A stretch of 64,000 bases of DNA from Thiosocius teredinicola. GTDB taxonomy: Bacteria > Pseudomonadota > Gammaproteobacteria > Chromatiales > Chromatiaceae. The DNA lies in assembly GCF_002009425.1 (NCBI RefSeq), contig NZ_CP019936.1, positions 1,349,001 through 1,413,000 of the forward strand, given 5' to 3'. Each line of letters starts with the position of its first letter. The first letter of the stretch is position 1. This document shows positions 12,121-14,387 of this stretch, one piece after another. A program made the position numbers and the translations under genes. Below the pieces are notes generated by a model, which saw nothing but the letters and a program-made list of their open reading frames with translations, did not search any database and was not told the origin of the DNA.

Positions 12121-13140
12121 ATGCAGCTCAGCGATTTTCATTACGACCTGCCCGAGGCGCTGATCGCCCAGCAGCCGACACCGCAGCGCGGCCAGAGCCG
12201 GCTGCTGCATCTTCAACGTGGCGGCGGGATTGTCGATCGACAGTTCCGTGAGTTCGATCGCCTGCTGCAAGCAGGTGACCTTCTTGTTTTCAACGATACG
12301 CGCGTTATCCCGGCGCGCCTGTACGGCAGCAAGCAGACGGGTGGGCAGGTCGAGATACTGATCGAGCGTCTATTGGCATCTGATCTTGCGGCCGCCCATG
12401 TGCGCGCCAGCAGGTCGCCGAAACCGGGCAGCCGGATTGTGGTCGGTGATCGGACGTTGCTGATGGAGCGGCGTGACGATGAGTTGTTCATTCTGCGCAG
12501 CGAGGCGGGCAACTTCGCCGAGTTGATGCAGCAGCATGGTCATATGCCTTTGCCGCCCTATATCCAGCGGCCGGATACGCAAGCCGATCAGGAGCGTTAC
12601 CAGACGGTATTCGCCGACCGCCCCGGTGCCGTAGCTGCACCGACCGCCGGTCTGCATTTCGATGATGCGATGCTCGAGCGACTGGCAGCCAAAGGCATCG
12701 AGTCGGCGCGGGTCACGCTGCATGTCGGCGCCGGCACCTTTCAGCCGGTACGCGTGCAGAATCTCGACGAGCACAAGATGCACAGCGAATGGCTCGAGGT
12801 AAGCGCGGCGACGGTCGACGCGATCAGACGCACCCGCGAACGCGGGGGCAGGGTGGTAGCGGTGGGAACCACCAGCGTGCGCAGCCTCGAGACGGCCGCA
12901 GCCGGCGGCGAACTGGCGCCGTATACGGGCGACACCCGGTTGTTCATCCGACCCGGTTACCCGTTCAACGTGGTGGATGCCTTGTTGACCAACTTCCATC
13001 TGCCCGAGTCGACACTGTTGATGTTGGTTTGCGCCTTTGCAGGCTATGAGCCGACCATGGCCGCTTATCGCCACGCGGTCGAGGCCGAGTACCGGTTTTT
13101 TAGCTACGGCGATGCCATGTTTCTGGAACGGCAGGCGTAA
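12121..13140 (+). CDS. queA: S-adenosylmethionine:tRNA ribosyltransferase-isomerase QueA
   Basis: Converts preQ1 at tRNA position 34 to epoxyqueuosine using the ribosyl part of SAM. The 339-residue protein has the family start [19 protein letters not shown], the motifs [26 protein letters not shown] and [13 protein letters not shown], and the C-terminal [18 protein letters not shown]. The next codirectional gene is tgt, the preceding step of the pathway. The stop codon abuts an A-run that belongs to a minus-strand terminator (13139-13167). Confidence 0.96.
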
Positions 13141-13215
13141 AAAAGGCGCGGCAGGGGGTGCCGCGCCAAGTTCCACCAAAGGAGGATGGAGGAATGTACT
13201 GATTCAATCAGTACA
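13139..13215 (-). ncRNA. Candidate small RNA with two anti-Shine-Dalgarno motifs
   Basis: The minus strand of the queA-tgt gap has all parts of a compact sRNA of about 77 nt. A promoter (TTGACC at 13249-13244, 17-base spacer, GAGAAT at 13226-13221) puts the start at about 13214-13215. That point is where a perfect 10-bp inverted repeat with a one-base centre begins (13195-13215). It is followed by a pyrimidine-rich single-stranded stretch with two CCTCC motifs (opposite 13181-13185 and 13188-13192). The end is a 9-bp GC stem with CCCCC loop and six T (13139-13167), a textbook terminator with no minus-strand protein gene in front of it. Alternative: on the plus strand a 10-codon leader (13186-13218, MEECTDSIST) behind AAAGGAGG. 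Confidence 0.55.
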
Positions 13216-13259
13216 TAATTATTCTCTAATATAAGATCCGAATGGTCAATTATTAATAG

Positions 13260-14387
<1,128 letters not shown>

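Follow-up and report, generated by a model that had tools for sequence, protein, structure and literature searches.

A candidate anti-Shine-Dalgarno small RNA between queA and tgt of Thiosocius teredinicola and its predicted family in Gammaproteobacteria

In the window (the whole 64,000-nt stretch of Thiosocius teredinicola DNA analysed here), the gap between the plus-strand genes queA and tgt carries, on the minus strand, what appears to be a small RNA (sRNA) gene (Table 1). The original prediction had put a promoter, a 5' hairpin, two CCTCC motifs and a strong terminator on that strand, and we found all of them at the positions claimed. The promoter, TTGACC-17-GAGAAT, agrees with the consensus at 9 of 12 positions, and transcription is predicted to start at about 13216-13214. 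After the 5' hairpin (SL1) the minus strand runs through UCCUCC-A-UCCUCC, UUUGGUGG, the nine-pair GC-rich terminator (SL3) and six T, a run that extends to the queA stop codon of the opposite strand. Taken alone the promoter is weak evidence, because four promoter-like sites occur in 3 kb versus a mean of 1.0 in shuffled sequences; terminator-like sites in the same 3 kb number five, versus 1.8 in shuffles. The core (Table 1) has a single match in the 64 kb at up to three mismatches, where 0.03 would be expected. A plus-strand reading of the gap, in which AAAGGAGG precedes ATG TAC TGA (a frame of two codons, the Tyr codon being of queuosine type), was considered and dropped because its ATG lies within SL1 and is missing from relatives such as L003, L005 and L012.

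Table 1. Genes and predicted sRNA features at the queA-tgt locus, in window coordinates
Feature	Position	Strand	Description	Basis
queA	12121..13140	+	convergent with the sRNA gene	PF02547, 449.4 bits
tgt	13278..14387	+	divergent from the sRNA gene	PF01702, 554.8 bits
sRNA gene, queA-tgt copy	13139..13216	-	about 75-77 nt	predicted fold and R1 model match
-35 element	13244..13249	-	TTGACC (family consensus TTGACA)	promoter scan
Conserved spacer element	13227..13233	-	TATATTA, directly upstream of the -10 element	sequence and promoter-bearing copies
-10 element	13221..13226	-	GAGAAT (family GAAAmT), 17 nt from the -35 element	promoter scan
SL1	13194..13216	-	5' perfect ten-pair hairpin, ATGTACTGAT-TGA-ATCAGTACAT	scan and fold
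Anti-SD motif 1	13188..13193	-	UCCUCC, doubles as 5' arm of SL2	sequence and unpaired probabilities
Anti-SD motif 2	13181..13186	-	UCCUCC, within the SL2 loop	sequence, unpaired probabilities, alignments A1 and A2
SL2	13172..13193	-	small hairpin, UCC.CCA[UCCUCCUU]UGG.GGA	predicted fold
Core	13191-13173	-	CTCCATCCTCCTTTGGTGG	sequence
SL3, intrinsic terminator	13139..13167 (stem 13167-13145)	-	nine pairs (eight GC), then six T	terminator scan

The 77-nt RNA is predicted to fold at -37.5 kcal/mol (z = -8.4, with 0 of 200 shuffles as good) into three elements: SL1, a small SL2 and the terminator SL3. The two CCTCC motifs had been proposed to lie on a single-stranded linker; the motifs hold up but the linker does not, as the window copy is predicted to display motif 2 (UCCUCC) in the SL2 loop, with an unpaired probability of 0.77-1.0, and to pair most of motif 1 (UCCUCC) as the 5' arm (0.00-0.29, with one base at 0.79). 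Among the matches listed, 87 of 95 SL1 regions fold with z < -2 against mononucleotide shuffles. SL1 arms also fit their own partners, the longest helix averaging 6.78 bp over 80 nonredundant copies versus 5.20 bp when permuted (200 permutations, largest permuted mean 5.51 bp). All nine pairs of SL3 change on both sides, both in 32 aligned copies and in 94 distinct rows taken mainly from the class sample, for which the alignment was fitted to the model. For SL2, 97.1% of the cells in the 94 rows are paired and no pair changes on both sides; covariation speaks neither for nor against this hairpin because it is nearly invariant, and with no such change the case for it is made by folding and conservation alone. 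Its loop UCCUCC is kept in most rows of alignment A2, and the 3' side of the loop differs in length. The SL3 covariation, the partner-specific pairing of SL1 and the SL1 fold z-scores indicate that the predicted structure is under selection.

The best evidence for the sRNA is comparative. When 56 genomes including that of the host were searched at the DNA level, 46 gave matches at E <= 1, the weakest being at chance level, and 27 had one at E <= 1e-5; of the eight genus relatives, G006 (80% complete) and G007 (94% complete) had no match in this search. Common to the copies in relatives are the promoter, SL1, both CU motifs, the core and the terminator. The refutation set beforehand for the sRNA included a lack of the hairpin, the CCTCC motifs and the terminator in relatives, and all three proved to be conserved. 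The exact 19-nt core pattern was found in at least 118 stretches of genome contigs. Its gammaproteobacterial carriers, among the matches listed, include Thiocapsa, Chromatium, Allochromatium, Halochromatium, Thiohalocapsa and Thioalkalivibrio, and further Thiothrix, Leucothrix, Thiomargarita, Beggiatoa, Sedimenticola, Thiodiazotropha, Arenicella and others. A metagenome-assembled genome (MAG) labelled Gallionellaceae (DDYH01000047.1) has a copy much like the gammaproteobacterial ones, due to mislabelling, contamination or transfer.

From the core-pattern matches listed and the earlier loci we compiled 160 copies, 150 of them nonredundant; core invariance and location counts in this set are biased because it was partly fetched by the exact 19-nt pattern. 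Among the matches listed, TTGACA-N10-wATATwAGAAAmT lies upstream of 95 of the 150 copies, a promoter being called when at least 13 of the 19 positions agree; 46 copies fell below this threshold and nine could not be judged. The 95 promoter-bearing copies, again among the matches listed, share a near-invariant ATATwAG between the -35 element and a weak -10 element (GAAAmT), which may be the site of a regulator. By eye, copies that lack ATATwAG can show GATAAT (L263) or CATAAT (L170) at the same spacing. Four copies (L039, L040, L100 and L120, the last two from Sedimenticola) have a different 5' domain, sharing GCCAAAGGCnGTATCGnAGTAG before the same core, and this domain matched no Rfam family at cut-off, with weak matches only. 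Tandem copies also occur, three of them in one Thiotrichaceae MAG (L107, 5785-6024) and two in L297 (2427-2765).

The extent of the family was gauged with model R1, which describes the 3' part of the sRNA (core, SL2 and terminator) and was trained on pattern-fetched copies. R1 scores the queA-tgt copy at 75.8 bits (G000:C1:1362139-1362197, corresponding to window 13139-13197). Of the 276 class genomes, 117 have an R1 match at E <= 1e-4, 87 reach at least 40 bits and 68 at least 55 bits. In the phylum sample, 35 of 299 genomes matched at E <= 1e-4; four of these lie outside the class and score 33.4 bits or less, and we treated 40 bits as specific for this reason. Fifteen named genomes that were picked for carrying the core all match R1, as their selection demands. 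The host genome has two real copies far apart, in the queA-tgt gap and upstream of rplM. A third host match (G000:C1:3033681-3033760, 31.2 bits) was rejected, as it is a terminator-like hairpin with a T run and has no CU core.

Where the copies lie was assessed in 87 class-sample genomes, namely 85 of the 87 with at least 40 bits (leaving out G035 and G096, and with G302 represented by a weaker copy of 36.6 bits, its best being 42.2 bits) together with G127 and G233. In 62 of the 87 the sRNA precedes rplM-rpsI in the same orientation, at a median distance of 159 nt (range 97-698) from the L13 match, and five genomes, the host included, have it antisense at queA/tgt. One genome has rplM 1.4 kb downstream of the sRNA, 18 have none of rplM, rpsI, queA and tgt in the sequence covered, and for two the sequence is too short; the host and G112 are counted under two headings. 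In the pattern-biased set of 150 copies, among the matches listed, 42 have queA or tgt no more than 1.5 kb away (31 have both, 11 have one), and every one of the 42 is antisense to the detected neighbour. The suggestion that the queA-tgt location is incidental is thus contradicted. Downstream of the remaining 108 copies, among the matches listed, 51 loci have an L13-like frame and 53 an S9-like frame on the same strand. The queA-tgt gap is a second conserved site of the sRNA; the position ahead of rplM-rpsI is the commonest one in the class sample. In the host, the rplM copy (G000:C1:4642064-4642128; L002, L041) ends about 230 nt before rplM, and Pfam confirmed L13 and S9 with 166.3 and 171.1 bits. 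This copy is flanked upstream by a 2Fe-2S ferredoxin-like gene (of which a fragment scores 24.4 bits for PF01257, just below the cut-off of 24.8), and similar upstream frames are present in 27 loci among the matches listed.

A same-strand position upstream of rplM in 62 of 87 genomes, at a median of 159 nt, is what a leader, attenuator or terminator of the neighbouring gene would give. We consider such a cis element highly improbable, given that all 42 queA-tgt copies among the matches listed are antisense to their detected neighbour and that on the plus strand the terminator stem is not followed by a T run. The gap before rplM, scored in 50 of the 62 rplM loci, also tells against it, with a mean best promoter score of 8.2 of 12 versus 6.5 in mononucleotide shuffles and a score of 9 or more in 17 of the 50, often about 75-90 nt before rplM. 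Because this gap so often has a promoter-like site of its own, the sRNA at rplM is most likely a separate transcription unit. A functionless coincidence of promoter-like and terminator-like sequences would agree with the weak significance of the promoter scan alone, but an arrangement that recurs in many genera, and at two syntenic sites with covarying stems, reduces this possibility to a negligible one.

Compared with Rfam, the window gave no family at gathering score for the sRNA, its only two gathering matches being tRNAs. The best sub-threshold matches in the loci tested were to RF02278 (a toxic or double-hairpin sRNA of Betaproteobacteria) and NmsRb of Neisseria. Against the RF02278 cut-off of 50 bits, the window copy scored 32.3 and the best copy in ten loci 38.1, and none of 19 relatives reached it. 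Only two of 276 class genomes (G127 and G233) exceeded it; for about 1.5 kb around their copies (L199 and L200) none of rplM, rpsI, queA and tgt was seen, and the best rplM-type copy in the class sample scored 48.7 bits. At E <= 1e-4, RF02278 matched 57 of 276 class genomes, mostly in the same places as R1, and none of 14 control genomes; 11 of the 14 controls match at E <= 1, so little can be read from a weak match by itself. In the host genome, as in six of eight genus relatives, RF02278 matches best at a copy of this sRNA. The predicted fold also shows the RF02278 layout of two hairpins, with CU-rich motifs before and in the first and a U tail on the second. The CUCC motif, the hairpin with a CU-rich loop, the spacer and the terminator come in the same order, and there are several copies per genome, but our sRNA has an extra 5' hairpin and its own promoter. 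Kinship with RF02278 is likely.

The published members of RF02278 include ncS03, ncS05, ncS27 and ncS62 of Burkholderia cenocepacia. The Burkholderia double-hairpin RNAs are described as carrying CU-rich reverse complements of ribosome-binding sites in three to five copies per genome (PMC5688073), ncS27 is said in a review to help shut down metabolism upon nutrient deprivation (PMC10987360), and a 2020 paper calls the type exclusive to betaproteobacteria (PMC7011215). Bordetella S17, likened to bdhR1 of RF02278, depends on Hfq. It is reported to repress one target directly, and 70 of the 92 genes that were raised have a site at the ribosome-binding site or close to it; S17 differs from our sRNA in that RNase E releases the abundant S17S from a longer transcript (PMC11722255). 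For NmsR (RF02877), with a cut-off of 52 bits, the window copy reached 29.8 bits and the best copy 33.6. The predicted fold nonetheless reproduces its layout (SL1, anti-SD1, SL2 with anti-SD2 in the loop, and the SL3 terminator), a likeness to NmsRA/NmsRB (NgncR_162/163), which are described as siblings with three stem-loops in which anti-SD1 separates SL1 from SL2 and the loop of SL2 holds anti-SD2 (PMC5362039). Mutating either anti-SD there ended the repression of all targets but GltA, and the NmsR copies stand in tandem in one intergenic region (PMC5362039), whereas the host copies are far apart. Because the numeric membership tests fail, we file the sRNA in neither RF02278 nor RF02877.

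The sX13 RNA of Xanthomonas is likewise gammaproteobacterial and represses through C-rich loops at G-rich motifs near start sites, but it is reported to be restricted to Xanthomonadaceae, always downstream of polA, Hfq-independent and equipped with 4C/5C loop motifs (PMC3771888); Rfam scans of the loci returned no match under that name. In mmgR/suhB (RF00519), anti-hemB (RF02837) and ncS54 (RF02871) a CU-rich stretch is followed by a terminator, and matches to them are weak and far below the cut-offs; this is a common style and no evidence of kinship. The available parts of the literature found, mostly from outside subscription journals, on sRNAs of sulphur oxidisers and on rplM-linked, anti-SD, RcoF/NmsR-type and RF02278 sRNAs do not describe this RNA, and a Thioalkalivibrio transcriptome paper names other ncRNAs (PMC8092127).

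Pairing with ribosome-binding sites, which had been anticipated from the CCUCC motifs, gains support from their conservation and from the likeness to NmsR and S17, and would be the probable function of the RNA. Target prediction with the CCUCC seed, recommended along with it, yielded no convincing target in a long-seed pattern search of nine genus genomes. The 9-nt complement AAGGAGGAT occurs at Shine-Dalgarno spacing before ATG twice in the host genome, once as the sRNA's own other strand. Long-seed sites number 12 in the nine genus genomes versus two for a reversed control pattern, too few for us to name a target. Pairing of the core with the regions upstream of queA, tgt and rpsI (-10.4, -9.5 and -9.8 kcal/mol) was no better than with shuffled sequences (-11.7, -10.0 and -10.5 kcal/mol), bearing in mind that gene starts are approximate and some loci repeat; for rplM, with the same approximation of gene starts, it was slightly better (-12.3 versus -10.7 kcal/mol). 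A search for 16S rRNA in the single-contig host genome of 4.79 Mb found none, and the same search matched only nine of 14 control genomes.

The scarcity of long-seed sites would also suit a general damper of translation, in which the RNA, as a decoy of the 16S rRNA 3' tail, would compete for strong Shine-Dalgarno sequences and lower initiation broadly. The core is near-invariant across the class and the commonest site adjoins a ribosomal protein operon, both of which fit such a role. The likeness of the CU motifs to the host 16S rRNA 3' tail, on which the decoy depends, is presumed by us, which weighs against it. Among RF02278 relatives, overproduction of ncS27 slowed the planktonic growth of Burkholderia (PMC5688073) and members have been called toxic when cloned in E. 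coli (PMC4603805), as the damper would have it; yet S17 overproduction slowed E. coli only modestly, upon entry into stationary phase (PMC11722255), and NmsR (PMC5362039) and S17 (PMC11722255) are reported with defined target sets. On balance we find the damper unlikely. The near-invariance of some 20 nt, more than two short seeds need, raises the further thought that the core is kept for binding a protein, with mRNA pairing secondary, and a 27-nt stretch is reported as invariant in the betaproteobacterial relatives of S17 (PMC11722255). Variation in the A2 rows, however, often falls on the 3' side of the loop and mostly spares the CU motifs and the UGGUGG arm, as fits seeds presented on a hairpin, and we think it very unlikely that protein binding is what preserves the core.

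What we propose instead, and hold to be probable, is a stand-alone, trans-acting, Hfq-assisted anti-Shine-Dalgarno repressor of multiple targets, a reading suggested by the likeness to NmsR, the Burkholderia RNAs and S17 and by the presence of Hfq in the host (PF17209, 104.6 bits), a candidate partner by gene presence. From their sequences, a promoter and terminator of its own and conserved UCCUCC-type seeds, with motif 2 predicted open and motif 1 mostly paired, are both features of this kind of sRNA. We infer that a sigma-70-type promoter and a terminator, both belonging to the sRNA gene, would delimit an RNA of about 75-77 nt. Of the UCCUCC motifs, one lies between SL1 and SL2 and the other in the SL2 loop; both would pair with the Shine-Dalgarno sequences of a set of mRNAs, blocking ribosome binding and lowering translation of the targets, and Hfq would probably be engaged at the terminal U run. 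The two host copies, antisense at queA-tgt and upstream of rplM-rpsI, may act additively as siblings.

On the comparative evidence the sRNA is placed as a member of a gammaproteobacterial family, apparently a new family of a known kind. Anti-SD sRNAs of such build had previously been described in betaproteobacteria; the sister family is found in about a third of the class sample (87/276), mostly beside rplM-rpsI. A more far-reaching reading, absent from the literature we found and in our view rather doubtful, is that of a translational regulator throughout the Gammaproteobacteria, its main gene beside rplM-rpsI, which would tie ribosome supply to initiation by mimicking the anti-SD tail of 16S rRNA, with the second site at queA-tgt in the host's family and a few others. 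As far as is known, sulphur oxidisers, purple sulphur bacteria and their symbionts have seen little work on sRNAs. A covariance model of the family is now ready for use, and the finding points to an ancient, important control of translation in these bacteria.
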